This document shows, piece by piece, positions 12,085 through 62,856 of a stretch of DNA of 64,000 nucleotides. The DNA comes from Paramacrobiotus metropolitanus (taxonomy: Eukaryota > Tardigrada > Eutardigrada > Parachela > Macrobiotidae). The notes beneath the pieces were generated by a model. That model was not told where the DNA came from and ran no database searches. It saw only the letters and a list, made by a program, of their open reading frames with translations. Location: contig NW_026570239.1 of the NCBI RefSeq assembly GCF_019649055.1, positions 248,001 through 312,000 of the forward strand, written 5' to 3'. The number at the start of each line of letters is the position of its first letter. Position 1 is the stretch's first letter. Made by a program: the position numbers and the translations under genes.

Positions 12085-12627
12085 GGCACCGCCGGGAACG
12101 GCACCGCCGGGAACGGCACCGCCGGGAACGGCACCGCCGGGAACGGCACCGCCGGGAACGGGGAACGGCACCGCCGGGAACGGGGAACGGCACCGCCGGG
12201 AACGGGGAACGGCACCGCCGGGAACGGGGAACGGCACCGCCGGGAACGGGGAACGGCACCGCCGGGAACGGGGAACGGCACCGCCGGAACGGGAACGGCA
12301 CCGCCGGAACGGGAACGGCACCGCCGGGAACGGGGAACGGCACCGCCGGGAACGGGGAACGGCACCGCCGGGAACGGGGAACGGCACCGCCGGGAACGGG
12401 GAACGGCACCGCCGGGAACGGGGAACGGCACCGCCGGGAACGGGAACGGCACCGCCGGAACGGGGAACGGCACCGCCGGGAACGGGGAACGGCACCGCCG
12501 GGAACGGGGAACGGCACCGCCGGGAACGGGGAACGGCACCGCCGGGAACGGGGAACGGCACCGCCGGGAACGGCACCGCCGGGAACGGCACCGCCGGGAA
12601 CGGCACCGCCGGGAACGGCACAGCCGG
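12085..12627. repeat. GC-rich 15/22-bp minisatellite
   Basis: About 540 bp of two interleaved unit types: a 15-mer GGGAACGGCACCGCC, mostly at the two ends, and a 22-mer that adds a second GGGAACG, in the middle. Because 22 is not a multiple of 3, the array runs through all three frames. Five overlapping ORFs of 193-262 codons on both strands are by-products of this (GNGTAGNGERHRRERGTAPP-like on one strand, RSRRCRSPFPAVPFPV-like on the other). No start context, splice signal or homology supports a protein. Confidence 0.9.
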
Positions 12628-25800: not shown

Positions 25801-28800
25801 CAAGCTACTGTTTTGTACTTGGAAGAAGGGACTTTCACAAATCTCCTGGAGCTGCGAGCAATTGCATGGCACAAAAAGCTCCCGTATAATTTCGGCACGC
25901 GCATTCATGAACCACCCTACGATATCAATCATATCATCAATGACTATTCCTTCTTAGTACGCAGCAGGCAGAATTATTTGGAGCGGATTCACTGCGACTG
26001 CGAATTTTCATGGTTAAGAAAATGGCTGCATCAAAAGAACTTACTCAAGGCAGTACCAGGAAATTCTGAAATTTTTTACTATGCTACGGGAGGCGGGAAC
26101 AGCGATGTAGAGGTCAGTGACGTCTATATCCCGATTGACTGTGCAGCGCACCCGTTTCCGACCGACCTTGGTATGATCAACTTCAACCAGGCTGCCTTTT
26201 CCGTTAACGAAAGCGAATGTGCACCGGACCATTTCAATTCGACTTATGAAAGTTTAAAATTTAAAGAAACCTTTTCCAGCTTCGAATTTAATTATGCGCA
26301 GTGTACGTCGCTATTTGGGCGAACATGCAGGCCAAGTGGCGTCTCCTTATCGTTTCCTGGCTATAGAACAGAGGAGGTTATGCACTACTATTGTCTGCAG
26401 TTTTTCGCTAACAATTCCACACCGAATCTCAGGTCTCTGGATGTCGAGTGTTGGGCTAACAGCACAGTGCGGGAGGTACGAGAAATCAGTTTCGCTCTAG
26501 CTAAGCCGCCCGTACGCAGTGTGGACTTATCGCTGTTTGATGGAGACTACATTGTGTACCGTGCCTTTGCACCGATGAGAATGCAGGTCTCGAGAATGAT
26601 TCTGTCGGACTGCATTGGAGACCGCCCCGCAGCGTATCTATCTGTTTTACAAATGAGTAATTTGTTACAGTTCGTTGTCAGTAGTTGTCGAAATATTGTC
26701 CTACAAGCCGCAGATTTCACACTGGTCCCTAATATTCGTGTTCTGGTGCTCACCAAATCAACGGTTGTCTCCGCTACACCGTCCATCTTTGCCGCTTTAC
26801 CAAATCTCCAAATTCTCTCATTGGAGTACAGAATGAGCGAAGTGCTGATGAATAGTTTTCCAAGTGACTATCAGCAGTATCTCCATAACCTGCACTGTGA
26901 TTGTGAATTTGCTGACTACCGCAACTGGCTACAGTCGCAAATCATCGACCGATTGCACATTTGGACGCCACAAGACATTTTTGATTTTAATACCACTGTG
27001 CAGTCGCTTTGCAACGATAACTTTCTCCCTGCCGGTGCGATAATACTTTCCCTGAACTTAAAAGAGTATGATGTCGGACGGCTTAATGAATGGCTGTGTA
27101 TAAAAAAAGAAGACCTATATTTACCTATTAATTGTGCCGATGCACGTGGTGGCAGTAGCGGAACAACGATAGACTTTCAACAAAGGAACTATTCAATTAA
27201 CGTTCCCAGATGCGAGAAGGCGGTCTCGCGAACGTGGCTGACAGGATGGCCCACTTCACCAGAAGGCTACGCAAATCATACAAAGCCGACACAAAACGGT
27301 TTGTATACTCAGATACTGATACTGCAGGGGTTTGCATATTTTCTACCACATTTTTAGTATGCCGAAGCACAACAGTATCTGTACAGCAACGTATGTACTG
27401 CTTGTGCAGACTTATTGGAAATACATACACAGTCCGTTTACTGATTTCCTGTATACGCACTGTGTAGTAGTGCAAGCGACTACAATAACTTCATTCTTCG
27501 TTACGATTTTTTTTGCTGACGGTGCTGCGTTCCAGATTGGACAAAAAAGCTCAATCAGCAAATTCTAAGAGAGCGACGATCCGAGCTGACCACAACAACA
27601 GTCGGATCAGACGGCAGACTGTACCACTATGACGATCAAATGCTGGATATTGATCTTGTTTCAGCACCTGGATACTTATCTGACGACAAATTTTGGCCGA
27701 ACAACGACACGCATATTCCTTATTTAATTAGCGATTACTTCGGTAAATACCAAGTACTGCCTAAGACCAGGGTCAGAAACAGGAAGACATCTATAAAAGA
27801 AGGGAATTGTTTTGTCAAAAAAGAGCATAGAATATTTTGTGCAGAAAAGTTTCTGCGTTAAATTCCCCAGAGTTATTTCCATCGCAGACATTTACTTCTC
27901 CTTCCTTCTTTTTAACCATTGATATTTCCTCCATCTTTTGGACAACGAAAATTTCCTTCCTTTAGAAATGCCTTCTTCTTTGTGACCCTGACGGTCTGAC
28001 CGACCACAACGCTCCTAACGACAAGCTGTAACTCACTCACTGGGTACTGCCAGAGTTTTTAAAGAACTTTGATATAACCTTTTTGTGCTATTGTAGAATT
28101 AGATAATCGATTTTCGCGCTATCGTAAATAATCTAAATAAATTCGACGACTCTTTGGTATGCCCAGATAATGCCGACCAAGTAGCGATCCAGGACGCACT
28201 GAATTCGATCTCCTCCTTTACTTCATACTGCATAACATTTCAAACCCGCACCGAAGAAAATGACTATATTTTGTTCATGCCAGGATACAGGTAAATATGC
28301 GTTAAACGTTGTTAAGAAGTTAGAACAAGCCTGTCCAAAATAGCCCTACGCACCCAGCTGATGGACAAAATGTATGTATTTCCGAGGCATTACGTAGCTT
28401 TCGTAATGCCTCGGTATTTCCTATCCGAGCTCAAGTAAGTTAGACAAACCTGCATATATTTACCTGCCTTAAAATCTATAAATTCGTCTTTCCACAGTTT
28501 AAGCCATCCAAAACTTCGAAATTTAACATAATGTCATACCGTAGTACTGCTTACAGATGTCAGTCTCAGGTGGGCAGGCAAGGCGGTCGGCAGAGTATCA
28601 CCTTAACGCATGCTTGCATTTTCTGTGGGGCCATTCAGCACCTGGTTCTTCATGCGCTGGGATTCGTTCACGAACATCACCGAGCGGATCGTGACGATTA
28701 CTTGCAAATTTATTTGAATCATACGGAACTTTCGCCAGACAACATTGTATTCCGTAAATTTCCACAGATGCGCACGCACGGCGCAGAATACGATCTGGAA

Positions 28801-30885
28801 TCGATCATGCACCTTGGCGCTTTTGACTTGACAAACCCTGAACATCCGCATCTCCCAGTACTCCTTCCAAAGGTTAATCTTTCACTGAAAAAGCGCATTC
28901 AAATGGGACAAAGACGAGCCTTGAGCGCAAGAGACATCGTCAAGTTGAACACCGCCTACAACTGCACGATGCTACGGTCTGGCATGCATACTGCTGAGCC
29001 CCTCCCGCATTTTGAGAAGAGCCATGTTCCGATGGAAATGTGTACGACACTGTCTAAATTAAGGTGCGGTGATAAGAGGTTACGTGAATGCTCCAAGAGT
29101 AAAATGATAGAGCTAACGTGCGGCGGCGGTACTACATCTGATGACTGGCAAACTGCTGCGATGACAGTTGCATATTCGCCCCTACGGGCCGTATGGTTGA
29201 ACCTGGAAGACACATTGCAGAGGCATGATATGTCCGGCGCATTTTGGCACATTAGACGGCTAATCTTGGGAACTCAACTTTATTTGTGCAAGAATGCGCA
29301 TTGCACATCTGTCCTTCGTGGTCTCGGCTTTGTGAACCTTATGATATTAAGGGTATCTTACAGCAGTGGCTTGATCATCAAGAAAACGGATTTCTGCAAA
29401 TTAAACAAGCTGCAGAGCTTGATATTCAGAATGGCAACTGTACAAAACCTCGAGCCGGGAACCTTCAGCAATCTATTGCATTTAAAAGTGTTGAGCATGG
29501 AATCAGATATTCTTATTGCGGCCGAAATAAATAAAAATCTTAGTGTTATTCATCGCCTGGAATACCTACACAATTTACACTGCAGCTGCGATTTCGCGGA
29601 GTTTCGCCAGTGGATGAAAAACAACAAAGCATTGCTGTGGGAGTTAGGACCCGAAGAGCTTAGCTATGTTGATGGCATATTGAGCTTTGCCCCATTTGCG
29701 AGAAGCACACTCTACAACCCGGTAGACTGTCGGGAAAATCTTACGGCAAATCTGCACACGGCTATAAACTTTGATCAACTGGAATACTCCATTAACGAGC
29801 CGTTGTGTAAGTAATCAAAGAAACGGCCGCTTTTTGAAACTTTAAGTTGGCATTTTCTTTGAATTTTGAATATTTTTAATTTGAATTTCAGTTTTTATGC
29901 GCTCGGATAAAGATCCCAATCGACAGTCAGCTAATGACTATTTTTGACCCTTGTATTAGCATGTTCACACGTCATAGAATGTATGGTCACGTATGTTTGG
30001 TCATAGAATCGAGGACGTTATAAATGTTTTGTAAACATTTTTAACCGACTTACATGGATATTTCTCTGGCATAGGTGAAGAAAGTGTTGCTCCAATAGTT
30101 CAGTTTTGTGAACCGGATATTTCCTCAAGAGAGGGTGTGGAGTCGCCTGCTGGAGGGGGTGCTCTGTAATACTCTGTAAGCACCATTTTTCCAGTAGAAA
30201 TTTCTTAACGCCTTTAAGGGATCTATATGACTGTAGTTCACTAGCGACCATAATTTGCAGTGGCGCACGGTTTGCTGGCATGTCCTTGTCACCGGTAGAG
30301 AAATAAACTGGCCGATGATCATAGGAGCCGCATCAGCCTTTCTGCCGGAAACCGGCAGAATTGCGGCACACTGACCGTCAATCACCGACTCGTTTATTTT
30401 TCTACCGGCAACATGCGCTGCCAACAACACAGCAACGTGTCGGCTGCAGGTAATTTCTCAATCTTTGCATTCGTTGGCGATAAATTATTACAACTATGTT
30501 TTGTAGCGCATCCAGTTGAACTAGTAAGCGCTAGCCAACACACCAAACTCGAGGGTCAGTCTGCAGTCACCAAGCAAGGGTAGCCTAAACTGCAGCGTTC
30601 AAAAGAATCGTTTATGTTTTTGGCAGACAGATTTGTGAAAGAATCGGATACGTTCAGTTATTTTTTGAGACAGCACTTTATTATTAATTTTGTGTGGTTT
30701 GCAGGCCGTCTTGGGCACTCTGTCACGCGTGTCTAATTGCTGGAATGGCGCTACCGGTCGTTTTAACGTGTCATCCGATCAACAGAGCAGGAATTTCGTT
30801 CGCTTCGTACTCCTGTTGCTACAAAAAGAAAATAAAAATGTTTATCCTGGCGCGTGCGGCTCTAAGGGTCGGTGTAATCGGTTAA
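19815..30885 (+). CDS. gene A: membrane-anchored tandem astacin / pseudo-astacin with LRR units
   Basis: Exons: 19815-19941, 21832-21960, 23863-23925, 24019-24142, 24945-27298, 27536-27742, 28167-28290, 28557-29806, 30075-30165, 30705-30885. All have GT/AG introns and stay in phase, giving 1,549 aa. Order: hydrophobic leader (MGIKAAVHVLFIF), acidic propeptide, M12A astacin domain starting TLTLWANGKVPYQIS with zinc site HEILHALGLFHE (about residues 177-188) and Met-turn SLMHY; two LRR units each closed by an LRRCT motif (HCDCEFSWLRKWL near 497, HCDCEFADYRNWL near 798). A second propeptide (WTKKLNQQI) leads to a second astacin domain (FWPNNDTHIPYLIS), whose site reads HLVLHALGFVHE near 1071 (Glu to Leu) with Met-turn SIMHL (Tyr lost). 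A third LRR-LRRCT (HCSCDFAEFRQWM near 1384), one TM helix (ACLIAGMALPVVL) and a basic tail follow. Joining of exon 5 to 27536 and the last two exons is inferred from phase and from gene B; the ATG is the first upstream of the leader. Two separate genes remain possible. Confidence 0.8.
20399..20684. mobile_element. foldback element in intron 1 of gene A
   Basis: Arms beginning AAAATTTTTTGCGTTCATGA (20399 on) and the inverse ending 20684, each followed by two or more ~31-bp words CCCGGACACTTTGGTCGGAG. The + and - ORFs over this segment look alike because of the symmetry and are not genes. Confidence 0.8.
20700..20805. repeat. GGACGTTTTGGTCGG palindromic cluster
   Basis: Direct and inverted copies of CCGGACGTTTTGGTCGGTT next to the preceding foldback. 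It shares the word TTTGGTCGG with it. Confidence 0.6.
22557..22965. mobile_element. foldback element in intron 2 of gene A
   Basis: Imperfect palindrome centred near 22750. ACACCTGTACGATAT (about 22711) pairs with ATATCGCGCAGCCGGCACAGGTGT, and CTAATAACAACATC pairs with the TTGTTGTTATTGG segment near 22840. A diverged direct copy of its outer part (CATATTCCGGCTC, CCCTTTGAA) occurs at 23350-23460. Confidence 0.55.
28381..28414. repeat. hairpin in gene A intron 7
   Basis: Perfect 13-bp arms CCGAGGCATTACG and CGTAATGCCTCGG around a short loop, between exons 28167-28290 and 28557-29806. Confidence 0.8.
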
Positions 30886-45012: not shown

Positions 45013-48000
45013 ATGCTCCGTTTCTGGGTGATTTTCTGCATCAGCGTAATTCAGTCTATAAACGGCTTTTGGGATGACAGGGATTATCACGACGATTTCC
45101 ATGACGATTCGGATGAGCTGCCTGATGGTAACTACCAACTTATGAACGTAGAATTAACAGTTGCTCGCCGCTGACTCACTTTCAACAGGTCTACATCAAC
45201 AAGGAGCCACAGTTCCCAATTGCGAAAAGATTTATACAATGACACGACCGTACACCATAAGTTCTTACAATTAGTTATGCCAGTAATGATAGTTGTCGCG
45301 GACTTGTACATCTAACTTTCTAAGCTATCTGGATTCTTTCTGTTTGTGTGCATTGGTGTAGCGTATCTGACTATCTGTTCCGGTCAATCGACTTGTTGGC
45401 ACAAAAAACATTTTCGGCAAATCACATAAAACCGAAAGGTTGTTAATAATTATCACTTTCTTAAACGAAAAAATTAGAAAACAAAGAAAACTGTCAAGTA
45501 TCGCAGTTAAGCACTGTTTTTGGCAATATAGGTTGGGTGGCTCGCATTGACCCGGATATCATGAAAGCCCACTTGGCCAATCTGAACCGTCGTGGATCGT
45601 TGGAAAACGATATCATGTTTGCTGATTCTGGCCTCGGCATCGCATCGGAATACGTTGGAGGTACCCCTGGACCAAGTGTAAAAAATGCTGACATAAAATT
45701 TCCGAGTTGACCCTGCAGGACAAAAATATGGCGTCAGTCAATGCCAGTCCAAAAACGTCTTTAATATAAGGAATTTCTTCTATTTTTTTAATGGTAATAT
45801 CTGCACAGTAAAACGTGACGGTCACTTTGTACGGCCGGATTATGCGAAGCAAAATTTGTTTGTCTTTATGTTACTATTAAGTAGTGTACTTTTATTTTTC
45901 ACGTAGTGAATGTGTTACGCTTGAAGTCATTCTGGGTCGCAAAGCACTACAACCAAAATACTTGTACTCGTATAAAGAAAGTGCTACTTTAGAATATAAA
46001 CCTTGTTTTTGAACGCTTCTTACTGACGCAGACGGATGCAGTTGTTGTTCTTCTATGTTTTAAGGAAGGAGAAATCTTACGCTATGGCCATCCGGAAAAG
46101 TCCCTTATCACATAAGTGACGCATTCGGTGAGGTCAAAAGATATTCTGCGTCCGGATTTTTGTTCAAAAAGCAGCATGCTTATTAAAGATACATTCCTGC
46201 TCCAGCGTATCATACGTTTGCAATTGCAGGATCCCAAGATGTTTTCCTTATTAAGGAAGCAATGTTAACAATCGAAAGCAAAACTTTTCGTTGCGTGAAA
46301 TTTGTGGAGAGAAAAAGCGACCGGAATTATATAAGTTTCAAGCCCGGAAAAAAGTAGGCCGCTGAAATACTCGTAGAACGATTGAGGTAGCTGTATTACG
46401 ACAAGCTTTCTAAAATACGTATGCGCTTCGGGTAGACGTTTTCAGTTAGTCGTGGACCAGGTACCATGGGCGGCTGAAGTTGTTAACAAATTACGTACAC
46501 AACTGAATGAGAGAACATATTTCAAAGCTAAGTCGGATGCCATTCAGTAGGCGTATTAAGCGGTGATCGCCGTCACTTGTACATTGTGACCTTGTTGATA
46601 GTTGATGATTTTACGCACTGGTTCGCCAAAAAGTGGATGCGGATTAGCAGATCCGACCAAATGCTTAAAAGATCTTTCATTGTCTGTGGCCTACAAAAAC
46701 TTAAAGAACTGGTGCTTGTTTCAAGCTTTAATGATCCATGTAGTGATGAAATTATAGACACCGCACCATGGTGATTTTACCTTCGAACTTCGAAGGTAAA
46801 TTACCAAGGTGGAGTATTTCGAAATTCAAAATACTTCATCGTGTAGCGAGTACTTTGTAGTGTTAGTATTAGCTGTTGTTCAGAAGCGTTTTAATGTCGA
46901 GGCGCCTGAAAGCAGCAGAGTCGCTTTTAGCCGGAGAAGTAAGAAATAAACTACTGTACTTTCAGATTGATAGCCCGACACGAGTACCCTAATGCATAAT
47001 AACTTTTAACAAGCCCGCAGAGACCGTGAATAGCATTGTGCTAGTACCTACCAACAGTTTCACCTTACAATGTTGAATAATAATAATGAAGTTTATTGTC
47101 CTTGCAAACGGAGCGGTTGCCCCCTCTAGGCTTCAGACAGCAGAACAACATCAAGAAATTACACCACAAAATGACGCTAATATGGAGAGGTGGTACCATG
47201 AAAACATGAATATTATTACGACGACACGCAAAATAAACAAAGCGAAACAAACAACCGTCAGTACAAGAAACAGCACAGCTAATGCTTTCTATGAAGTAGT
47301 TCGTACGGTTGCGATACGTCAATGTTAATGTGGAAAAAGGGTGGGAGGCGATCGCGATGGGGTCGATGCATAAAACCAAAACCCACATACGTTAATTGTT
47401 AAATTACAAATTTCTGAAAATTTTCAAAATTGTTTTTCAAAATAAAACCGTGGAAAAAAGGAAAGCAAGGACACTTACGCGCGTAATTGCCGTCTGTATT
47501 TCCAACTGAATCGCAACCGTTGAGATAGGAGGTAATAAGGGCGATGTCAGGATATAACAAAGATAACGAAACACAACAAGTGAAAATGTTGCCGAAAATA
47601 ATAGGGAGTTTCTTCGTACCTGCTGAACAAGGGGATGGCGATGATTGACCGCACAAAGTTTGGTATTTAAAGCGCAGCTTTATGCTTTCTTTTAGATTTT
47701 TGTTTCTGCAGTACTTTGGAGTCCCGTTAACATTTTGGTGATTACTTAGAAGGTTTGATATTTTAGTTGCTCGTCCTATGTTGGTCTTCAAGATCTTCAA
47801 GATGGTCAGCCGGTGTTTTTGGATCCAGACAGGTGCATGCAGCTAGGAGTAGTTCAGCACGAAATTCTGCATGCTCTCGGCTTGTTTCACGAGCACAGCC
47901 GGAGTGACAGGGATTCTAGTGTAATCATCTACAAAGACGAGATAATGGACGGTTACAAAGCGCAGTATGACATCATTCCCAACATGCCTACTTTTGGAAC

Positions 48001-51000
48001 GGATTACGATCTGGAATCCTTGATGCACTATGGTATGTACGACTTCGCTAAGACCATGGACTGGCCTGTTATCATTCCCAGAAAAGATGGAGTTTATCGT
48101 ATGGGTCAACGCGAGGGTTTAAGCGTACGCGATGTCGCAAAGTTGCGTAATGCTTATTACTGCCAAGTTGATCAGGGGTTCGAAGATCAGGATCCTGAAA
48201 AGCGGTCGTTTTCGGGATTTTCCGGGTTACCGATGCAAACCGATCAATGTGCTTTACAGTTTAATTCTTACTGTGAAAATAAAAAGCCAAAAAAGTGCAC
48301 AAAAGATAGAATGTTGGTGATGAATTGTAAGATTTCCGCAGACGCATCTTTTTTGCGTACAATGGCCACGGCCATGGCAAAGGCGCCGGTGCGGCCGATC
48401 GTAATATCCCTAACGGATATTCAAATAACCTCAGAAGCATTGTATCCGATCGAGAACCAGGTGGTGGAAATGTTGATGAGTTATTGCCGCACCCGTGACG
48501 CAACGGCAAAACTTTCAAGTTTCTCTTTCGCAAATCTCCAAGTTTTGACATTCGGGCGTTGCATAGACCTTCGAATCAAGAAGTCCGACTTTAAATTTTT
48601 GCCCATGTTAAGAGTGGTAACTTTCCTGGATACAACTATTCTGTATTTGGAAGAAGGAACCTTCACGAACTTACCGAAACTACTAGTAATCGCATGGCAC
48701 AGTGAACTTCAGCCTAACTTTGGTACGATAAAGCGCCAGCTTGCCTCCGGTGGGGACGACCACGGCCACATTGCCGAGAGAATGGTGGCATATTTGAAAC
48801 GAATGCACTGCGACTGTGAATTTGCTTGGCTGAGGAGATGGCTTCATGAGAGCGGCATGCTTGAGCATGCTCCTAAGGGATCTGAAGTCTATAATTTCAA
48901 TGACGATGAGTTGTTCGTCATCCCGGAAATAACGAGGAACGACATTTATATACCGATTGACTGCGCAAAGCAGCCCTTTCCTATTGATTTTACCATGATT
49001 GATTTTGCCCAAACAGAATTTTCTGTCAATGAACCACATTGTCCAGCACCCATAGTCAACGCGACATACGATTCTTTTAAATTTAAACGAACTTTTTCTC
49101 GCTCTCGGATCAGCATCGCACAATGCCGGTTACAGTTTGGAAAGTCTTGCAAGCCGTGGCACAGGAGTTCAGTGCGCTCAGCTACGGAATCGACAGTATT
49201 GGATTATTGCCAAAACCAGCTCAACAGCTCCCAATTGGCACTGGTTATTGGATGTCCGGGTAATACTACAGTGAGGGAAGCGCAAGAAATATCATTTGGG
49301 CTGGCCAAACCACCATTGCGTACGATAAACTTGAATGTGGATGACGGAGATTATTTGGTCTACCGTGCCTTTGCACCCGTTAAAACACAAACTCTAAGCC
49401 TGAGACTCTACGATTGCGTAATGCAGCAGACAACCGCAAAACTACGTTCTTTGGGTTTTGAGGGTCTGTTATATCTTGCATTCGCTTACTGCCAAGATAT
49501 GATTGTGCAAACAGACGATTTCGCCGCTGTCCCAAATATTCGCGTTTTACTATTTTTCCAGTCAACATTGGTCGACGTCACACAGTTCACCTTTGCTTCT
49601 CTTCCGAATCTTGAAATTCTATCCATGGAATACAAAGCGGTCGCAGTGCTCGATGTTGACCTTAGTTACTATCAGTATCTACGTAAACTGCATTGTGATT
49701 GTCAGTATTCTTTGTTTCGTAAGTGGCTACAGCGGCGCATCATACACCGGTTGCAAAATGCTCCCTTGAATAGCGTGAATAACTCGTATGACAATGGAAA
49801 CATGACCCATTGTCTTGTTGAAGAGCGGCGTTTGCGGTCAACATTCCTCAGATTTGATATCGAGGGCGGAACCTACTCGAATAGGTTTGAATGGACGCAG
49901 GAGGAATTGTATCCGTCGTTCGACTGCGCAGACGAGCATTCCAAAAGCGGGTTTCGGCGCTCAATACACATTTGTAACCGTGGACCGTTAAAATACTCAT
50001 TTAACGTCCCAAGCTGTAAAAGCACCGTTGCGACAAGCCTCTTACCAGTAACATTAAGCGAAGCGAAGCCATGGGACAAAAATGTTACAGTGGAAAACAG
50101 AACTGCCACCCCGGAGAAAGGTGAGTGCCTAATTTAACGTAACACATGTCACTTGAAGCTATCCAAAGATACGAGAACTGTTATCTGGACTCACACAATC
50201 CTATTTTGAAACAATTTCGCTATGCGGTTCATTATTACTAGAAAACACTCAGATGCATTGACAGCCCTTTTGCGCGCGGGCAACATACACAAATTCAATG
50301 TTCAGTAAGTTCGTTTTCTGGCTGAATGCGATAGCAGACTCCATGCAGTATGCGTGTATTCCAGTGTGTGGCTGGTGTTTTGAAAAATAAATTCTATAAT
50401 GTACGTGTTTTGATTAAGCGATGAGCGGAAGTGCATATTATAACCAATGACCGAAAAACACTCACAAAAAGTGAGAAAGCAACTCGATAATGGACAGCCA
50501 GCACAACTACCATGCCGATAATCTCATTTCGAAACTATGTCAGCTGCTATCAAAGTTCTCTCTTAAGACTGAGTTAAAAATTCACATTTCTAGCCTTTTT
50601 CTAACACTTTAACACGCATTGTGATTAATTTAGGAACGTCCGCATACGTCTTTGCAGCCGTGATCTGGACACTGTACTACCGGCCGGCAGCTGACTTTTT
50701 TATCGTGTGTTCCAGATTGGACCGTCAAATTGAGTAAACCAATCCTGCAAGAGCGACGATCCGAATTTACGGCACAGGCAGTGGATGCGGCTGGCAGTGT
50801 GTACCATTACGACGACCAAGCGCTTAGCACCGACCCGGCTGGGTTTTCCGGGCTTTTGGCTACCAGCCGCTTCTGGCCGAACAACGGCAAAGATGTTCCA
50901 TATTTAATCAGCGAAGCTTTTGGTACGAATAGCCGTATAGCTTACGGCCAAACACAATCAACCAGTCTGACTGCAGCTAATAAATACTTCGCTTACTGCT

Positions 51001-51774
51001 CCTGCTGCTGCTTATAATACTTCCTTATATGGGCTCCCCTGATATTATTTTCCCTTATCTGGGCTCCCGGCTAGTGAGCAATACCCGTCAAATTATTTAT
51101 CGGATTTATAGCAGAACCCTTTTCTACGTCTTTCAACCGGATTTACAAGTGAGCACACCAAAGAATTCCGAAATTTTACATCCGAATTACATTTATAGAA
51201 TTATATTATCTGTATATATTTTTCATTAATTTCAACCGGATTTGCCAATGAACAAACTAAAAAATGCCACAAACGTTGATACAAACTCAATGCTACAAAA
51301 GTACTGGCGAAATAACTATTTTACATATATCTAAATTTTCATCCAGTCATAACACTGATAACAGCTGCAAAACTGTGAGTAATAACGTAACCGCCGATGT
51401 AGAGGGTTGCTCATATTGCTCGGGATAAGGGGAGCCCATATAAGGCAGTAAGCGAGGTACAGTATATTTAGACCAATCTGAAGTTACTGTACTGTAGCCG
51501 CTAGATGAAGTGAGACCACAGAGTCTGGTGTACGAAAAAATGCAAGCCCAATATACACACTTTGCTCCATTGCAAAAATGTTTTCGATTTCAAACCGTTT
51601 CACTCTGCTGCTACCGATATATTGCATGTTTTACTGTTTTTTGATATTTTTTCATTTTTTGCAGCGAAAGGTAATTATTGTAAGAGCACAATGTCAAACC
51701 TCTGACAGTTTTCTGATTGTATACCTGATCTGTTGTGGTTTTTGGGGTTCCCCTGGCATGGCTATATTAGCCTA

Positions 51775-51836
<62 letters not shown>

Positions 51837-54800
51837 CTCATGCAGTTACGCTGCCCCTGGAAAGGGCAGTACAGTACGAAATGCAAATGCAAAGTGTGCG
51901 CCCCCCGGTGGGAGGAAGGATCGTGCTCAATGCCCGACGAGAGAAGGCATCGCCCTGATCTAACACAGGTCTCACTCTTCATCTAGCTGCTACAGTACCC
52001 TAACCCTGCACTTGACGGAAATTTGTATACAGTGCACTGAGTGCAGCCACACGCACTTGTTCGATCGAATTCACCATTCACATACACGGCTTGCAGTTAG
52101 TGCACGTGAGAACTCGAATCGGCTGAACGTTTATCCTGCTATACCGCACCGTATCGCTCATAGCGTACAAATTTCCGTTAAGAACATGGTTGGAGTACAG
52201 TATCTGTCGTTTGTTTTGCAAAGATATCTCAGACAAAGAGGAAGTGAAGGACTCATTGTCTTCCATCTCAACCTACACTTCGCAATGTGTAACATTCAAG
52301 GCCAGAGAAATGGAAGAGGATTACATTTTCTTTCGGCTGGGACAAAGGTAAATTGTACAATAACTATTGACAACGGTGCCATTAGACGTGCCGATGGTAG
52401 GCGAGGCGTAGCATGCCTAACGCTTGTCATTTGGAATGAGAGAATTACGCGAGAGATGCGGGACTCATTTACAATCATATGCAAAGCTCCATTCGGAATC
52501 AGATCTGTTTTCACCAAACATCGTAGTTTCATGCCGTTTTGCGTTTAACGACATTTATTATAACAACAGTTAAATGAAATTCTATTTGTGATTGTTGAAA
52601 TGTCGTATGTATGGAAGGTATCCGTCTGGATGAATTAGCTAATTTGATTATGACTGATTGGAAAATTCTACCAAAAACACGCGTTATATAAAAATTTATT
52701 TTAGATCTCTTAGGACGGTAAGAGTTGAAGACCCATCGGCACACTGCACAGAAAATTTGACAACTTAAAATTATGTAGAAAGCGGAATGGCTTTTTCCCG
52801 TTCTATTTGTTAACCTACCCGGTCCTACCGTAAACTACAAGTAAATATAAAAAATACAAGGTAGCATAAGTTTTTCCTAAAAACTTGTCATGAATCGTTT
52901 TTTACAATCGCCGTAACGACAAAAAACGATGATCAGACCTTACGGTTTCTGTACAAGAGTAAATGGAAAGCCATGCAAGTGCAGCGTAGTCGCCGCCTTG
53001 GTTAGGTGTATGGAGCTATAATTTGAGAAAATATTTACTCTTGCAAAAAACGATGTGTAATATTTTATGAATACAACTAAAATTGTTAAGACTAGTTTAG
53101 TTGTGTAGTAATTTTGATGCTGAATTAGTCCTCTTTAATTCTATTCAGAAAAAAAGTAGAAGAGCGTGTGCACTTCGAAATATGGACAGCCCTGGTGCTT
53201 TTCCCATAGACGCATATTCTTAACCTTGCGAAGGGTCTCATTCTAAATGACACAACAGAGCCGAAATCACACCTCATTAGCGATCGATGGTATCGTTGTC
53301 ATTTGATAGAGTCCGTACCTCATAAAATACCGCCCGACTTCAATAATTATGTTCTTCGGTTTATGCTTTCTAAAACGAAAGACACCGAAAGTTCCGCATA
53401 ACCCGGCCTAAAATAGTGTAAAGGCTATACTGGCTGCCCCCTTGGGAGAGACATTTCGAAAACCCCAGCCTTCCTTCCCCCTTAAAAATTAATGGTAATA
53501 TCTTACGCAAAGTCAGACACTCCAGTATCGTTCAAACGCCAGTTTTTTTATGCATAATGCGCATATACAGTATAACGACTGGTAACATGTGTCATCACAG
53601 TCAGGAGCTAATCTCCGCTCCGAATGATCAAGGATGCTTTCTCTGTTCCCAAATTTATCTCTGTGAATCATAACCTGCACCAAAGTGCTTTGCACTGAGG
53701 GTAGCCCGGTCAGAGTGAAAAGGGGGTAGACCGGTCAGAGTGATGTCTGACTACTGTATGCGTATTACAAATTTCTTGCTTCTCCTGACGGTTTTCGCGT
53801 AAGCAGATTTGACTCGGTTGAGCGGATGGGCACTCAGATCCCAGAATACGGTGACATACTACGATGAAAAATTCATGTTGGTAATATATACCATATTAAA
53901 AGCGATAGTGCTCGTTCAATTTGTATGCGGAAAACAGGGTGTCGGGAGAAAATTCAAAAATTCCATAAGTGTTACTGTTGGCGTGTAGGCAGCGAATGTT
54001 TTCGCCGCGAAAATTGTTAGAAAACTCTGCAGCGTAGAAATACAAAGCACATCGTGTATTAAAAAACAAAAAGAAAAAGACACGGTGTTATTTATATTTA
54101 TTTAATAAAAACTACAGAAAAATGTGCTTTTTCCGACAGAACAATTTTGAACACAAGATTTTTCATTAAAAAAATTACAAAAACCATAAAGATCTGGATC
54201 GTATAGGTGCATGATGATTGGTGCATGCATAAGTTTTTTAGTGCATTGTTATTGTAATTATATGGTGTAATTTTGTAATTTGAAATACAATCGTCGCCGT
54301 GTTGTAAGTACTATTGTCAAGTGTCCATTGTTTTATTTATTGCCGTAAACGTGTAATGCACTGTTGACTGACTACTGTCGTCGTCCCATCCGTATTATTG
54401 CAATATCGATTATGTTCGTCACCGTCAAAGTACTGTAACTGTTACCCCGTTATTTGTAATTCTCCCTGATGCAGTTCAGTCATAGTATCGCCAAGTTAGG
54501 GTGTTTTGGTTTCATCAGTATGTTTCAACAGCTGCTCTGTTGAAACGCGTTTCAACGGCACTAATAACGGTTTCAGCTGTAAAGTTTCTTAAAGGCTATA
54601 AAGTATGAATAGGTTATTGCGCTGAAACTTGTGAGAAAAAACTGAAACCCGCTAAAGCTTAGTGAAACCGAGTGAAACTAAATGAAACTTGCTGAAACCC
54701 ACTTCGACCCGCTGAAACGCGTAGAAACCTACTGCGACCCGCTGAAACACACTGAAACGCGTGGAACCTACTGCAAACCACTGAAACACACTGAAACGCG

Positions 54801-57800
54801 TTGAAACCCCCTGCGACTCACTGCCGAACCAAACTGCAGTTAATTATGCTTACACGCGCTGTAACTACCTTGTGACCTTTATGTCGATTCATCATTTGCG
54901 AAACTTTGCAAAACAAAATTATTTCTTGCAACTAACACGAAGCAGAATGCACTTGAGAGTGGTATTTTCTCGTCGAGCAGTCAATATTGTGTACTGATTG
55001 CACAAGCGTGTAATACCCAAGCCCTTGGGAAACAGCAGTGGTCAGTGATCAGGAATGCAGGTATCACTGACAGCAATTGACAGTCATTGGCAGCAAAATT
55101 TACTGTTGCAAAACTGTACTTATTGTGTAGAGGTCGTCGTTCTGAACGTTAAGTACTGCATTGGAATTAATTGGAACGCACCGAATTTTGTATTGTGTCG
55201 TACAAATACTATCTGATCAAATACAATCCCATTATTAATTTGCATTAGGTTAAACTTTGCACAGCGCTAACGTAGTCACTGCAGTACGTGTAGTTGCTAC
55301 TTTACTGTTACTGTAGTTACGGTACTATGTTGCTGTCTATAAAGTACAGCCTGTTATTCGAAGTGCTTTAAAATGATGTCATATTGCTTTGCATACTGTA
55401 TTGCCTGGAGACAGTTCTACTATACCAAAGTGACCCTCCTGAACAACGCCGAACAAGCCGAAACAAACGATCAAGTGCTGAGACATTCTAAAGTACTGCA
55501 ATACTTGAAAAGCTCGGCAGTACATACAACAGTACTTTACATACAACAGCACATACTACAACAACATGTAGGGGGAATTTAACTGCGGATGCCAGCACTC
55601 CCTGTACTTGTTGTCGTCACCCGCCTAGAGTGTGACGTTACGGCAATACATAAGGTTAAATCAGGCGCGGTACATAAGCACCATGTTTAGCCACAACGTA
55701 AACCTCCAGCCGGGTGACGGCAGCAAGTACACGGAGCGCTGGCTTCAGCAGTTGAATTCCCCTTATACAACGTGCATACATACAACAGTACATAAATACA
55801 ACAGTACTTTACACACAACAGTCCATACAACAGTTGAAATACAACAGTACTTTCAAAGTATCGCTGCATGGCACAGCATGACTCTGAAAGTACTGCTGTA
55901 GTTTGGAAGTGTTGCTGCGCTTTTGAAGTACCGCAATACTATAAAATGTCTCAGTGCCTGATCGTCTGTTTCGGCTTGTTCGGCGTTGTTCGGGAAGGAC
56001 AGTTTGGAAGCAATTTTCTCAATCAACGGCTTCAGTGTGTTATATCATGGCGGTACTAAAAGGCGTACACGCGGCACTGGTGACGCCACAGAAAGGCAAG
56101 CAGCCCATTAGTGCAGTCCTTTAAGGCTCGTAGACTCCATAGACTGCAATGGTGAACTCGTTCTACGTTGCATTACGATTGATGAATTGGTGAATTGCAC
56201 GTGCCAACGAGCGCGACAAGCATGTGCTGCAAGTCTCATGGATGGAAGAAAGTATGGCTCAGACCTGGGCAGTTATATATAACTTAAAGCGAGTTTCCGA
56301 GGTTTTAACGTAACTCTGAAGCGTAACTCGGTACCCCAAAAACGTAACGCTAACGCAACTCGCCTAAAATCTGTATGTATTGTCTATGGTAGCGTAACTC
56401 GCGGTATAACTCGAAGCTCGGTTTTACTTGCGTAGGTAGCGTAACTCGCACGCTTCCTGTAACTCGTAACTCTAACGGTAGGTGCTTTTTCTACAACTGC
56501 CCTGGTCTGGGGCCCGACTCTATGGCTGTGCTTTGAAGGCAAACCAAACTTTGAAAATGACGTGATACTTTTAAAGTACTTTTCCCGAAGATCCCCGAAC
56601 AGGCCGCAACTGGCGATTAGGAGCTGGGACATTTGACAGTATGGCTGTACTTTGAAAGTAAAGCAATAGTTTGAAAGTGAGGTAGTTCTTCCAAAGTACT
56701 GGTGTACCATAGTGACCTTCCCGAACATCCCCGAACAGGCCGAGACGCGCTTCCCGTGATGTGGGGTCATCGAGTTGTTGCTCAAAAGAAAGGGAAAGTA
56801 TTTCAAGTTTTGTGATGCAGATCTCATCAGTAATAAAAGCGGAGAGAGAATTAAAACTTTTGAAAGTTAGCCGAGTTAGCATACACAGCCATTGCATGGT
56901 CGGTCCGTGCCGCTCCGACCGCTGTGTTCTAATGCATACGTGTTTAGACCTTTTTAAAACATTCAATCGTCCTTAGTTGCACACATATTATGCATAGAAA
57001 GTCTTAGATACTCCCAGCTCATTTCAAACATCTAAAACTTAAAATCGGTGCAGAAACAACTGCACGGGCGCATTATGGTGCCGACGACGACAAATACTTG
57101 GCCCTACAGTACTTATCGTTAATTTAAACTATGTTGCACAATAGGTTTTCGCATTAGCTTACAGTGCAATGAATATGTGCGTCGCCGACAACGGCAACGA
57201 CAACAAGCCACAATATAATATAATTCTCATAATACTACCAAAGATAAGAATAACATTGCTTGCACCGTGTACGGAAATATCAAAAAATTACAGAAACTTA
57301 TTATTGTGGCCCGTAACAAATTGTTCCAATAACTTTGTTGCTATACAAGGCAGCGGCGGCGGCGGTTGACAAAGTCTTAGTTGCAAACAAGGGTGCGATA
57401 TGTGTCGCTGACTTTATTTCCTCTTTTCTGGCATAATAATACTTTTTGGTATTGGTAGTTTTAAGCGTGTAGTTAAATCAGACACGTCTGCACCGTGGTC
57501 CAGCGACGACGACAGCAAATGCTTACTGCGAACCGCACATCTGCACCGTACTGGTACAGATTTTTACCTTTACCAAAAATTCATATGTGATTTTCACAGA
57601 TGTCAGTCAAGCGTTGGCCGACAAGGCGGTCAGCAAAACATCACTCTATCACAAGCATGTATTTTCCGCGGAGCTATACAGCATCTGGTTCTTCATGCAC
57701 TGGGACTTTTTCACGAAAATCAGAGAGCCGATCGGGACGAGTATTTGCGCATATACCTCAACCGTACGGAGCTTCCATCAAATAGTATTCTGTTGCGCAA

Positions 57801-60027
57801 ACTTCCGCAGATGCCCAGTTACGGAACAGAGTACGATCTGGAATCGATCATGCATTACGGCGCGTTCGACCTGTCAGACCCACAGCGCCCCGATCTGCCA
57901 GTATTTCTTCCCAAGAAAACAGTGCAGAAAGGTAAGCGCATTAAAATGGGTCAAAGGCGGACTTTGAGCGCAAAGGACATTGTCAAGCTATACACTGCAT
58001 ATAATTGCACGATGCAGGCTGAACCCCGTGGTGGTTATGAACCACTTCCCAATTTTTTAAAAAGCCGTCTTTCACCGCCTGTGTGTGACCAACTAGCTAA
58101 GGTGAAATGTGCCAGCGCAAACATGAATAACTGCACATCGCAAAGAATGATTTTTCTGTCATGTGACAACAGCACGACCATAGAGGACTGGGAGCAAGCT
58201 GCTGCTGTATCGAAATTGCAATTGTATGTCGTCGTGTTGGACATTTCGGATAGCGGTCACATGGATGCAGCGCCCGACGCCTTTCGCTCAATTCGAAGGC
58301 AAATCCTTTTAGCGTCGTTTTCCTACTGCCGAGACAGTCGTTTTACAATGATTCTTGCAACGTTCGGATATGTTAACGTCATGGATATAGATTTGCAGTG
58401 GTGCTACGGATTGATAATAAGAAAAAAAGACTTCTGCGGATTCCCCAGGTTGCAGATTCTGACTTTCAGTAGCAGCACTATTTCTTATCTGGAAGCAGGG
58501 ACGTTCACCTCGCTGTCAGATCTGAAATTGTTAAGCATCGAGCAAGATCTGTTCGATCCGACGAGCTTGGCTTTTAATGTTAGCCGGACGCAGCTGGTTG
58601 ACTATCTATACACGATCCACTGCGGCTGTGATTTCGCAGACTTTAGAATGTGGAGAAAAAACAACAAGGCACTACGAATGGAACTGGAACCAGGCGAAAT
58701 AACGTTTCTCGAAGTCGTTGTTGAAAATGGAAGAATATCGAGAAGGGACGTTTTCTTTCCAGTAGACTGTCACAAAAGAGATGCCGAATTTAATCTTGCC
58801 CAAGTGGAATATTCCATCAACGAGCCGCTGTGTAAGTGGATATTTTTCAAACTGTCACGTGAATTCGTCTCTGCTAATTGCTATCGCATATCCGAGCGCT
58901 TTACGCATTAAGGTACGCATCATGCGCTTGGCACTCGTTCTTCATAGCATATCTGTTTAATGTAACAATAATGTTAAAGCCGAAAGTTGAGTGACAACGA
59001 AAAGTACAGTAGTTTTATGTAGCCAAAATAATGATACCACAAGCCTCTCATTATTTGCTCGTTTGAATCTGTAAACATGTTAAGTTGCACAGCGTAGTTT
59101 CACGCTAGCCTTGAGAACACGTTTGTTGTTTAGGTGAGGCCGGCACCACATCATCTACAGTTTCCTCTGACGCAGACCCATGTAAAGCAGCATTTATGAA
59201 ATATTCCCATAAATTTGGTACGTTACAATTTGCTACGAGGACGGTTGAGTACCGTGAACATACTGTGCACGATTTGGGTGCGATGAACATCGGGCTACGC
59301 GCAATGTGCGTTTCAGTTTATGCATTTGCACCGTAATGCCAGTAGCGCAACGCTGCTAGCGTTGTAACTATGGCATAGGCTAACCCGGTTGTTCGTACTT
59401 CGTAGCATCCTCATATTCTTTTTCTGCGTCCCAGAGCACTATTCTGGGCTTTTGTTATTTATTTTTCATGTGTGCTTGTGAATGCATGCTATTCAGAAAA
59501 ACGGCCTCCGCTAATGTTATCAGAGAACACATCGCAACGCGCAACCCATGAACGGGAGCCGCCTTATCCAGTTAATGGTGAGCAACGTTTTTGTACTGTA
59601 CCCGCGCGAGTTTAAGGGACAGTAAATTCCCCTGGACCGCCCGCACTAGACGTCGGTTTCTTTGATGTCAAAGAAGCCGACGCCTAGTGCGGGCGGTCTG
59701 GGGAAATTTTCTGTCCCTTAAACTCGCGCGGGTACAGTATTAAATAGTTTATTATCAATCCTTTTTCGTCGTACGATTTATTTCGCAGGAGCCACTGGCA
59801 CGGTGTCATATTCTGCTCCATCTTTTCATTGGATTTACGGCTGTCTTGGAGGAGTTGCTGCGTTATGCGTTGTGCTGGCTCTTTACTTGGCTCGGCGACG
59901 TATTGGTCGCCCATTTCGCCGTGGTGGGAATTCGACAACTTTGGAGAGCGGTCCACTGCTGGCTGGAAACGTCGCGACTGTTGGAAGGCCAAGAGTGTAC
60001 AGATTTCTACCGCGTCTACAGAGTTGA
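45013..60027 (+). CDS. gene B: membrane-anchored tandem astacin / pseudo-astacin with LRR units
   Basis: Paralogue of gene A. Exons: 45013-45127, 45532-45660, 46065-46127, 46230-46353, 47767-50120, 50716-50922, 52233-52347, 57600-58831, 59134-59217, 59789-60027, all GT/AG and in phase: 1,553 aa. Exon 5 is 2,354 nt, exactly as in A; exons 2, 3, 4 and 6 also have identical lengths (129, 63, 124, 207). A clear signal peptide (MLRFWVIFCISVIQSING) precedes an acidic stretch and propeptide. Astacin domain 1 (LTLWPSGKVPYHIS) has HEILHALGLFHE and SLMHY. Two LRR-LRRCT units (HCDCEFAWLRRWL, HCDCQYSLFRKWL) follow. Domain 2 (FWPNNGKDVPYLIS) has HLVLHALGLFHE, with Glu lost, but keeps SIMHY. Then come a third LRR-LRRCT (HCGCDFADFRMWR), a Ser/Thr-rich stalk, a TM helix (GCLGGVAALCVVLALYL), a stop-transfer ARRR and a ~45-residue tail. 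Introns 6 and 7 are inflated by repeats. The long fusion is inferred from splice phase; a transcript would settle it. Confidence 0.8.
46766..46813. repeat. palindrome in gene B intron 4
   Basis: CACCATGGTGATTTTACCTTCGA and its near inverse CTTCGAAGGTAAATTACCAAGGTG form a ~48-bp hairpin. Confidence 0.7.
50634..50744 (+). other. possible alternative terminal exon of gene B (after module 1)
   Basis: An acceptor (ATTTAG) at 50631-50633 is in phase with the donor at 50120. The frame from it reads TSAYVFAAVIWTLYY, continues through the 50716 acceptor region and stops after LDRQIE at 50742-50744. If used, it would end the protein after the active astacin and two LRR units with a weak hydrophobic segment, skipping the pseudoprotease half. 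No matching exon is seen in gene A, so this may be chance. Confidence 0.25.
51023..51445. mobile_element. MITE with CCTTATATGGGCTCCCC ends in gene B intron 6
   Basis: 18-bp inverted ends at 51023-51040 and 51428-51445 (outer CCTTATATGGGCTCCCCT). A second TTATCTGGGCTCCC word follows inside the left end. The centre is unique AT-rich DNA. About 420 bp, nonautonomous. Confidence 0.75.
51776..51833. repeat. (TA)n microsatellite
   Basis: About 27 uninterrupted TA units inside intron 6 of gene B. ORFs that read YIYIYI through it are artefacts. Confidence 0.95.
54500..54832. repeat. GAAAC 10-bp periodic repeat
   Basis: About 25 degenerate words of the type CTGAAACNNN (CTGAAACGCG, CTGAAACACA, CTGCGACCCG), with a short inverse-sense start (TGTTTCAACAG...TGTTGAAACG) at about 54525-54560. 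Confidence 0.7.
55425..56008. mobile_element. ~580-bp foldback element in gene B intron 7
   Basis: Almost the whole segment is a palindrome. The outer left arm GAACAACGCCGAACAAGCCG (about 55440) pairs with CGGCTTGTTCGGCGTTGTTC (about 55972). AAAGTACTGCAATACTT pairs with GTACCGCAATACT. Inner GGGGGAATTTAACTGC pairs with CAGTTGAATTCCCC. The centre is near 55690. Confidence 0.8.
56284..56482. repeat. GCGTAACTCG word cluster
   Basis: Eight or so copies of GTAACTC(G) with small variations. The same word appears singly at about 15845, 17408 and 19252. Unit spacing is irregular. Confidence 0.6.
56516..56745. repeat. ~125-bp imperfect tandem duplication
   Basis: TATGGCTGTxCTTTGAAxG...AAAGTACT...CCCGAA.ATCCCCGAACAGGCCG occurs twice, starting at about 56519 and 56640. 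The words CCCGAACA and AAAGTACT relate it to the foldback at 55425-56008. Confidence 0.7.
59594..59739. mobile_element. 146-bp near-perfect hairpin element (CCGCACTAG family), copy 2, in gene B intron 9
   Basis: Arms of about 70 bases (outer TACTGTACCCGCGCGAGTTT) pair with only a handful of mismatches around the tip TTTGATGTCAAA. The inner 60 bases match the element at 17461-17524 in layout and in the CCGCCCGCACTAG words. It ends 49 bases before exon 10, which encodes the TM anchor. It is also an excellent RNA hairpin candidate. Confidence 0.85.
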
Positions 60028-60676
60028 CCCACCCTTATATGGGCGATGTGGACGAAGTGCCGCATACCGATTTGGTGACCACCGAAGGCACAGAACTATT
60101 ACCGTTGAGCAGCAATATGGCTGACAAAAATATTCAGCATGATCCATCCTAGTGAAATTGTTGATTGTTCCGAGGAAATAGCCCGGAAACGGTGCATTCC
60201 GCATTTATCAACTTTTTTATGAAAAACCTAACTACATAGTTTTGCACAGCACTATTATACCGTCTTCCAGCGCAGAGATACTGTTCCACTGTGAAGCCAA
60301 AACCTTTTTTCTGAGTTGAGTATTCTAGAATTGTGTATGCACGAATTGGGAGGTAAGAAGAAGCTAACATTATGTCCCGTCCGCTAATCAAATTTTGATA
60401 CAGAAGAAATGGATCAGTTTATGCTGGATTTGTAAATCTGCAGCAACTCTGTTAACCGGAAACTGCACACTGCTGGTTCATCGCATGACATCAGACAATG
60501 ATGTAAATTACAACGACAAACTTTTTAGCTGTCCGTAGTGAAGTAGTAGAGTTACACAACTGTACCATATACAACAAGGTTTGATGGTTCGTCGGCGACC
60601 GTTGGTGATATTGATGAACTTCACGAATCATCCAAAAATCAAATTATTCAGTTTACGCACGCACCCAACACCTGCA
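60028..60676. other. downstream of gene B, no gene recognised
   Basis: Expected 3' UTR and intergenic DNA. No motif is assigned. Confidence 0.4.
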
Positions 60677-61000: not shown

Positions 61001-61434
61001 GACTTAACTGGTGATCGGAGACCAGCGGCGCGTGATGTGTGCAAATTCTCCGTTATGGAAAACCAATGTTTTCACTGCGGAAGTTTTCCGGCCGGGAGCG
61101 GCCAGCCTGAAAAAGCTCGGACATCAGTCCCCAAAGAGACGCAAAGCCGTTTAAGCCTAACCCTTTCTGCCGGACCGAGTAAAAATTTTTGCCGACGGCA
61201 TGTTGGATGTGCAGAGTCGCAAATCTTTCTGTCGCGACATTGTCGCCGTTTTAAGATAAAACTCAGCCGCTATTGTGCGCATGCGGTCTGTCAAGCTTCC
61301 GTTCAACCGTAAAGATTTATGGTGTGGCGAGGACGGCGCACACTAGTGATCAGAAACTCAGTTTTTATGGTTGAACGGATGCCTGGCAGACCTGCATGCA
61401 GTTTCCAACATCCATGTATCCAGCATTTTCACAG
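61001..61434. other. no gene recognised upstream of pseudogene D
   Basis: No equivalents of the upstream exons of genes A and B were found. Confidence 0.4.
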
Positions 61435-62856
61435 ATGCCAGTCACGCGTTGGCAGACAGGGCGGTTAGCAGAATATTACGCTGCCTCAATCGTGCATTTT
61501 CCGTGGCGCTATCCAGCATCTGGTTCTTCATGCACTCGGACTTTTTCATGAGCATCACAGAACAGACCGCGATAAGTACCTGCGCATTTATCCAAATCGA
61601 ACAGAACTCCATGCAAGCAGCGTTCTTTTTCGCAAGCTCCAGCAGATGGCCAGTTACGGGACAGAATACGATCTGGAATCAATCATGCATTACGGCGCAT
61701 TCGATTTGACCGACACACAACATCCCGAACTTCCGGTATTTCTTCCCATCGTGACGACGCATAAAGAAAACCCGTCAGAATGGGACAACGTCGAACTTTG
61801 AGGGCAAAGGACATTGTTGAGCTGTGTACTGCTTATAACTGCACGATGCAGCCAGAATACTATGGAGCTTATGAACCAATTCCAAAGTTTGCTGCAACCC
61901 CTCTCTTTTCGACAGTGTGTAGCGAGCTGGCGGCACTAAATTGTGTCAATATTCGCAACTGTACATCACAGATTAACATACATTTGGAATGTGGCTACAG
62001 GACTAGGATAAATGATTGGAAGCAAGCTGCTTGAACTGTGGCAAAACTGCCATTGCATGTTGTCCGACTGGATCTGTGGGGCATTGGTCAGATGAATGAA
62101 ACGCCCAGTGCGTCTCGGCCAATTTGAACACAAATACTTTTCATGATGTTTGGTCGCTGCTGTCATGATGTGAGTAACGCATGCTGGCCACATGTATATC
62201 TCATGTACTCTAATGACGTCAATCCTGTTCTAGCTTATAAGCTGCTACTGCACATGCATTAGGAATCATTCTGTAATCAATGTAGAAACATTCTACATCC
62301 GCGTTACTTTACACATTAAAGAACCCAGTTTTACACTGCCAAGACTGTCGTTCTACATATATGCTCTCCATTTTCGGTTTCATTAATTTAACGGATAGCG
62401 AGTTGTGGTTGTGTTACGGGCTTATAAAAAGAAAAAAGGATTTTCACGGGTTCCCAGATTGCAGTTTCTAACTTTTAATAGCAGCACTATACAAAATCTG
62501 GAAACTGGGGCTTTCATTTCGCTACTAAATCTCAAAGTGCTTAGAACGGAAGAAAGACTGTTCGATCCAGTCAGTACTTTGCTCAATATCAGCCGGTCTC
62601 AGCTAACAGATTACCTATTCAGAATCCATTGTAGCTGTGATTTCGCCGAATTTCGCAAATGGAGGAACAGTAACAAGGCATTACGAATGGAACTGGAGGA
62701 AGGCGAAATAACGTTTTTTTCCAGGCGGTGTTGGAAATCCCCGAATTACGAAAAATGAAATGTTTTATCCTCTCGACTGTCTTGCCAAACTGTCGAATAT
62801 TACTGAGCCAGTATTCGATTTCTCTTAACCGGAGTTTTCTGTTAACGAACCGCTTT
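61435..62856 (+). pseudogene. pseudogene D: decayed copy of the pseudo-astacin/LRR exon
   Basis: Equivalent of exon 8 of gene B (57600-58831), with both splice sites preserved (TTTTCACAG before 61435; CTTT|GTAAGT at 62856). It reads CQSRVGRQGG, then TAG at 61466-61468, then QHLVLHALGLFHEHHRTDRD and YDLESIMHYGAFDL, so it too has Leu in place of the catalytic Glu. A frameshift follows near 61770 before MGQRRTLRAKD. TGA at 62032 follows ANDWKQAA-like sequence, and about 190 extra bases interrupt the LRR region (about 62150-62400). The LRRCT (HCSCDFAEFRKW) and the SVNEPLC end are still legible. No other exons of the gene are near, so only a fragment was duplicated or survived. Confidence 0.85.

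Follow-up and report, generated by a model that had tools for sequence, protein, structure and literature searches.

Positions 45013-60027 on the + strand of the window (the whole 64,000-nucleotide stretch of Paramacrobiotus metropolitanus DNA analysed here, C19:248001-312000) are predicted to encode a single-pass membrane protease in which an active astacin and a catalytically dead twin share one chain with leucine-rich repeat (LRR) units, where the two halves have been copied jointly and where the dead half would act as a docking or regulatory module, a reading to which we assign a probability of roughly 0.6. Ten exons, with GT-AG at every border, combine into a single frame of 1,556 aa with zero internal stops (Table 1); the first-pass annotation had proposed the same ten in-phase exons and single frame, with a length of 1,553 aa that needs correction. 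The nine intron phases are 1,1,1,2,1,1,2,1,1. The predicted order is signal peptide, propeptide, astacin 1, LRR units 1 and 2, propeptide 2, pseudo-astacin, LRR unit 3, a transmembrane (TM) helix and a tail. In the N-terminal half, WDDRD lies at about residue 20, NDIMFAD at 64, HEILHALGLFHE at 175 and SLMHY at 228, followed by LRR units 1 (residues 301-570) and 2 (592-894). After the splice that joins the halves come DWTVK (929), ERRSE (941), YHYDDQ (958), HLVLHALGLFHE (1067), SIMHY (1121), LRR unit 3 (1197-1450) and ESGPLL (1530). The N terminus is hydrophobic and a single Kyte-Doolittle TM peak is predicted, at residues 1489-1514, in agreement with the one membrane anchor initially proposed.

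Table 1. Features of the LRR-astacin gene, in window coordinates.
Feature	Position	Strand	Basis
Exon 1: signal peptide, acidic stretch WDDRDYHDD	45013..45127	+	Gene model; similar exon in L001, L002, L011
Exon 2: propeptide 1, ..NDIMFAD.. (FXGDI-like)	45532..45660	+	Gene model
Exon 3: beginning of astacin 1 (LTLWPSGKVPY)	46065..46127	+	Gene model
Exon 4: N-terminal subdomain of astacin 1	46230..46353	+	Gene model
Exon 5: astacin 1 core and LRR units 1, 2	47767..50120	+	PF01400 120.7 bits; gene model
Intact zinc motif HEILHALGLFHE of astacin 1	47858..47893	+	Motif reading
Linker intron between halves, phase 1	50121..50715	+	Place and phase kept in seven paralogs
Exon 6: propeptide 2 with ERRSE, YHYDDQ; open frame without ATG	50716..50922	+	Gene model
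Exon 7: N-terminal subdomain of pseudo-astacin	52224..52347	+	Gene model
Exon 8: pseudo-astacin core and LRR unit 3	57600..58831	+	PF01400 108.8 bits; profile and fold matches
Zinc motif HLVLHALGLFHE of pseudo-astacin: three His present, catalytic Glu replaced by Leu	57682..57717	+	Motif reading
Exon 9: short, juxtamembrane	59134..59217	+	Junctions match L006 (q1450, q1478) and L005 (q1450, q1480)
Exon 10 as first annotated: TM helix and tail, frameshifted end	59789..60027	+	Gene model; tail comparison
TM helix, residues 1489-1514	59821..59898	+	Kyte-Doolittle
ESGPLL, acidic-dileucine-like motif	59944..59961	+	ESGPLL in L006, ENGPLL in L005, ESGQLL in L001
Conserved tail QISTASTELTHPYMGDVDEV.., another frame, approximate limits	59998..60152	+	Tail comparison with paralogs

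Both protease domains are recognized by the Pfam astacin model PF01400 (cut-off 22.5 bits), astacin 1 at 120.7 bits and the second domain at 108.8 bits; their PDB matches include BMP1/tolloid, and all peptidase matches belong to the astacin family. Astacins are defined, in the accessible part of a review of the family, by HEXXHXXGXXH followed by EXXRXDRD (PMC9848320). Astacin 1 fits this definition (HEILHALGLFHEHSRSDRD) and has its Met-turn and tyrosine in the form SLMHYG (family form SIMHY). Its propeptide reads LENDI, with Asp and Ile present and Phe and Gly absent relative to FXGDI, which the same part of the review gives as the aspartate-switch motif of astacin propeptides (PMC9848320). 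The second domain preserves the three zinc histidines, EXXRXDRD and the Met-turn (HLVLHALGLFHENQRADRD, SIMHYG) and is without the catalytic glutamate of HEXXH, reading HLVLH, with Leu at this position in 18 of the 18 domains of its clade. It is therefore a homolog of M12A and not an active-type member. With both PF01400 scores and HL at the second site, the earlier suggestion of an active and a dead astacin in one frame is borne out.

The LRR assignment rests on profiles and folds. LRR_8 scores below its Pfam cut-off of 27 bits in both exon 5 and exon 8 (P0002 18.4, P0001 13.9), the units being individually too divergent to reach it. LRR_8 does match 13 of 24 aligned members at E <= 0.01 (best E 1e-6), and a 24-row profile built from exon 8 relatives matches TLR13 at E 4.7e-22 across both the repeats and the C-terminal cap and, among the best 60 of 150 matches, also LGR5, TLR3, TLR4 and others. 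The AlphaFold models, computed for exon 5 and exon 8, are usable in their LRR parts only; the low pLDDT of the astacin parts is probably due to exons 3-4 and 6-7 lying outside the modelled stretches. The modelled LRR unit 3 superposes on the LRR domains of LGI1 (Z 11.3, 178 aligned, rmsd 3.9), Slit/Slit2 and lamprey VLR with VIA Z scores of 9.7-11.3, a range in which, for repeats (Z < ~13), the fold tool warns that only a common arrangement may be meant. Foldseek with the exon 5 model returned poor superpositions. The three units are mutually homologous (BLASTP 7e-20 to 1e-33), and this, together with the profile and fold matches to LRR ectodomains, supports the three LRR-LRRCT units described at the outset.

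At the C terminus, exon 10 with its TM helix stands as first annotated, and the last residues do not: RVYRFLPRLQS is out of frame relative to the tails of L005 and L006, in comparison with which the conserved tail (QISTASTELTHPY...) resumes in another frame past 2 extra bases near 59990-60000, and the tail match of this copy falls apart into two segments (query 7-72 and 70-116) that differ in frame. The 2 extra bases mean that the assembly is wrong here or that the tail of this copy is altered, and RVYRFLPRLQS appears unlikely to be the normal tail of the family. Conserved copies of the TM-tail exon lie at six sites (C58 twice, C6, C104, C19 twice), and other TM-like ends occur in L002 and L003_4; the other pairs either yielded no such end or their stretches stopped short. 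The ESGPLL- and TELLPL-like tail motifs resemble what we take to be acidic dileucine sorting signals, and would suggest regulated uptake to endosomes. Intron 9 holds an inverted repeat (window 59584-59749, 82-bp arms, 88%), one arm of which has 69 matches in the genome, often adjoining inverted copies, and which is thus probably a dispersed foldback element. Elsewhere in the window, a GC-rich 22-bp minisatellite (12139-12573, 20 copies, 98% match) lies inside a GC peak at 12-14 kb.

The architecture recurs across the genome (169,799,020 bases, 533 contigs searched), in which at least 164 PF01400 matches were found, a lower bound with 150 of 445 candidates scored. The zinc site was read in 142 domains (from 144 rows, of which two have a gap at this site; some twelve further matches did not enter the count). 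Of these domains, 111 have Glu at the catalytic position, 19 have Leu and 12 have some other residue. All three histidines are intact in 18 of the Leu domains; the exception, L048, has lost them and falls on another branch. Same-strand active/dead pairs were found at 15 loci or more. When 13 same-strand neighbour pairs were picked by frame size alone, their motifs still unseen, 12 read HE..H in the first and HL..H in the second domain, the one active/active pair being C173 (L012/L013), and three further active/dead pairs were found at C58 (L017/L016), C7 (L022/L021) and C131 (L052/L018). Active/active same-strand neighbours occur also at C55 (L024/L023) and C43 (L053/L054), so pairing is not always with a dead partner. 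No pair has the dead domain in first position; pairs were, however, defined by that order. Glu-to-Leu domains for which the stretches read show no upstream partner are those at C31 (searched over 8 kb upstream), at C252 (where the contig ends) and in the 61.4k copy of the window. No dead partner was seen for L028, a domain of the first type, and L027 is close to the end of a contig.

Several copies are incomplete: both main exons are open in only about 10 of 15 pairs, a stop and frameshifts interrupt L011 and L014, the C58b, C7b and C131 copies have stops in one half, and L001 needs a frameshift in exon 2. Within the window itself, positions 24946-29811 hold another active/dead LRR-astacin pair of like architecture, with a 237-bp linker intron and a stop-free modelled frame, and positions 61418-62719 a third copy of the dead unit, broken by stops, with a conserved tail exon beyond it at C19:314029-314259. 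LRR-astacins are numerous in this genome, where the dead unit has at least 89 matches and exon 5 at least 61. Single-unit LRR-astacins also exist, as a cluster on C36 and as scattered relatives, and the active/dead pair is one branch of this larger LRR-astacin family. Ten single-unit LRR-astacins have a degenerate zinc site in mostly open frames (L030-L033, L037, L045, L046, L048-L050). These branch apart from the Glu-to-Leu clade, and pseudo-astacins therefore probably arose at least twice in the LRR-astacin family.

In a tree of 64 LRR-astacin domains, computed with the catalytic residue masked and two fragments dropped (L034 and one window piece), the 18 His-intact Glu-to-Leu domains form one clade (100/99, present in 100% of 200 bootstrap trees), which shows the predicted dead domains to have a common origin. 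The 15 first domains of pairs, with L027 and L028, form a separate clade (100/99). Few positions besides the masked one (4 columns) separate first from second domains. Distances among first and among second domains of the 15 pairs are closely matched (Mantel r 0.914, with 0 of 20,000 permutations as high and a top value of 0.766), indicating that the two domains were for the most part copied jointly, and the identity of only 25-35% between the two domains of a pair suggests that the joining is probably old. The arrangement is best read as two LRR-astacin units brought together at a phase-1 intron, either through tandem duplication or through the fusion of two lineages; in the tree the dead clade joins the C36 group at 67/23 and is not placed as sister to the first-domain clade, which favours neither origin. 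As a separate observation, a Thr at about residue 56 of exon 8 is found in 16 of 16 second domains compared, the first domains having Ile, and it completes an N-x-T sequon just past the zinc motif in 17 of 18 dead domains.

As to mechanism, the protein would be secreted and oriented in the membrane as its signal peptide and TM helix predict, kept latent by its propeptides, and located at the cell surface or along the endolysosomal route, and its LRR units might select partners or substrates. The dead domain may bind zinc without cutting; as its task we propose docking or regulation of the active domain or its substrates, the kind of role that dead domains have in other metallopeptidases. Sheddase activity and regulation of the active domain by the dead one, both raised in the first-pass annotation, are plausible possibilities. 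Were the dead domain instead a substrate- or matrix-binding module for adhesion, with no effect on the active domain, the presence of its zinc ligands and the strong conservation of its astacin core would be accounted for, and pseudopeptidase ADAMs, whose surface loops assemble synaptic complexes according to the abstract of a review of pseudo-metallopeptidases (PMC11266112), offer a precedent; we consider this unlikely, as adhesion alone leaves unexplained the frequent joining in cis of the dead domain to an active one.

Rather improbable, too, is that the chain is a polyprotein cut at the conserved dibasic site where propeptide 2 begins, with the active half then held by pairing with the anchored dead half. 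Such an arrangement has a precedent in meprin alpha, which the available portion of the review describes as released by furin and membrane-bound only with meprin beta (PMC9848320). A dibasic [KR]R-S lies past the linker in 11 of the 11 propeptide-2 sequences read, extended to RERR in winA and L002 and to KERR in L008, L011 and L014. The site of the present gene is however QERR, presumably not a full furin consensus, and the dibasic site may be simply the ancestral propeptide site.

That the two halves form one gene, as had been claimed initially, is strongly indicated by the gene structures. Junctions were mapped over 13 stretches with a splice-aware aligner, which inserts spurious small exons in the divergent L008, L009_10, L014, L003_4 and L074_15, and only those agreeing across loci were counted. 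A phase-1 junction at residue 929 (q929) was found in 8 of the 13 (the present gene, winA, L001, L002, L005, L006, L007 and L011); in L003_4 and L014 it was placed at 928, in L008 and L009_10 it came out close by amid spurious pieces, and in L074_15 none was credible. The linker intron measures 62 bp in L011, 237 in winA, 282 in L006, 507 in L002, 595 in the present gene, 872 in L007, 940 in L005 and 1,532 in L001, to which L008 adds 148 bp as read by eye from its sequence. Exon-1-like exons occur upstream of unit 1 in L001, L002 and L011. The linker itself has no hydrophobic stretch between the halves (Kyte-Doolittle maximum 0.84). That each half has its own propeptide, and that the halves lie about 12-20 kb apart in C63, C326, C58b, C7b and C131, would favour two adjacent genes, one active and one dead LRR-astacin, merely co-duplicated. 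Linker introns of 62, 148, 237 and 282 bp, however, leave no space for a terminator, a promoter and a signal exon; neither exon 6 nor the open frame holding it contains a methionine; the junction is constant in place and phase in seven paralogs; and, of the open fragments of >=22 aa common to >=3 loci, none falls in the interval from the exon 5 frame to the exon 6 frame in the eight loci compared (winA, winB, L001, L002, L005, L006, L007, L008). Given the short linker introns, the missing start codon and the conserved junction, we rejected the two-gene reading as very improbable.

Turning to whether the dead half of this predicted gene is maintained, dN/dS between paralogs more than 50% identical was computed over the astacin core and amounts to 0.04-0.14 in dead domains where computable (12 of 18 used) and 0.04-0.25 in active ones (10 domains used), figures that are rough since dS is near saturation. 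The predicted dead core is under purifying selection by this measure. Among the 14 second domains with a Met-turn read, the zinc tyrosine, kept in the present gene, has become Phe, Leu or Val in six, and the Met of the Met-turn Leu in three, which fits a domain that would hold its fold and zinc ligands while catalysis is no longer selected. Decay into a functionless second domain, to which these losses, the missing Glu and the stop-broken third copy at 61.4k of the window might speak, is hardly credible against an identical Leu with intact His in 18 of 18 clade domains and pN far under pS in the astacin core, and was rejected on the strength of dN/dS and of the Leu being fixed. The retention of the pair from paralog to paralog, combined with purifying selection, argues for some function of the dead domain, and suggests that the dead half may have a selected job of its own.

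Among known systems, the best analogies for the putative dead astacin would be carboxypeptidase D and the meprin alpha/beta pair. The meprins share with the present protein an astacin with propeptide, a membrane-bound multidomain build and, as far as the accessible review text goes, two partner chains of which one is furin-released and held (PMC9848320). Here, by contrast with the separate genes for alpha and beta and their MAM, TRAF and EGF modules, one chain has two astacins, one of them dead, and the five translated stretches searched (exons 5 and 8, parts of exons 1, 6 and 10) gave no Pfam match to MAM, TRAF/MATH or EGF at any E value up to 1. Membership in the meprins or tolloids was discarded in the absence of any MAM, TRAF, EGF or CUB match in these stretches. 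Carboxypeptidase D (M14) presents the same succession of signal peptide, tandem peptidase units with an inactive last unit, TM and cytosolic tail, in the part of the account available (PMC11266112). It belongs to another peptidase family, and the M14 carboxypeptidase domain is absent here, where all peptidase matches are astacin-family. To our knowledge carboxypeptidase D has no LRR.

In ADAM22 with LGI1 a dead metzincin and an LRR protein act together, and the LRR unit here is nearest in fold to the LGI1 LRR (Z 11.3); the two are nevertheless separate proteins, the metzincin family is another one, and the fold match covers the LRR only and no function. BMP1/tolloid shares the astacin catalytic domain, as its PDB matches indicate, and differs in having one catalytic domain, accompanied by CUB and EGF modules. 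Toll-like receptors and other LRR-LRRCT ectodomains share repeats and C-terminal cap (TLR13, E 4.7e-22), while the LRR stack is short here; we know of no protease domains in them. The Figure 1 legend of the 2023 astacin review lists about 30 accessory domains with LRR not among them (PMC9848320), and to that extent the claim that an LRR-decorated double astacin is undescribed holds. The terms leucine-rich, LRR, tandem, inactive and pseudo are absent, as words and as word beginnings, from the text of this review (PMC9848320), and neither an LRR-astacin nor an active/dead astacin pair appears in titles or abstract starts among the matches listed in the literature search. The gene is a new architecture inside a known protease family, and a built-in pseudoenzyme is of a kind known from other families.

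A more far-reaching proposal, in our view a doubtful one, would be that in tardigrade LRR-astacins the zinc-binding dead twin is an obligate anchored partner, that a dibasic cut frees the active half while still holding it, and that LRRs diverging over at least 15 copies give each pair its own target. Many of the pseudo-proteases studied are separate genes, which makes it difficult to single out what they do to the active relative. An active and a dead astacin fused in one chain, with one Glu-to-Leu loss kept in 18 of 18 domains of a clade, would make the function of a dead metzincin testable by deletion within a soluble construct. The architecture further adds LRR to the accessory modules of astacins, and reveals in a tardigrade a large family of predicted membrane proteases unmentioned in the literature found, in the parts of it that were accessible.
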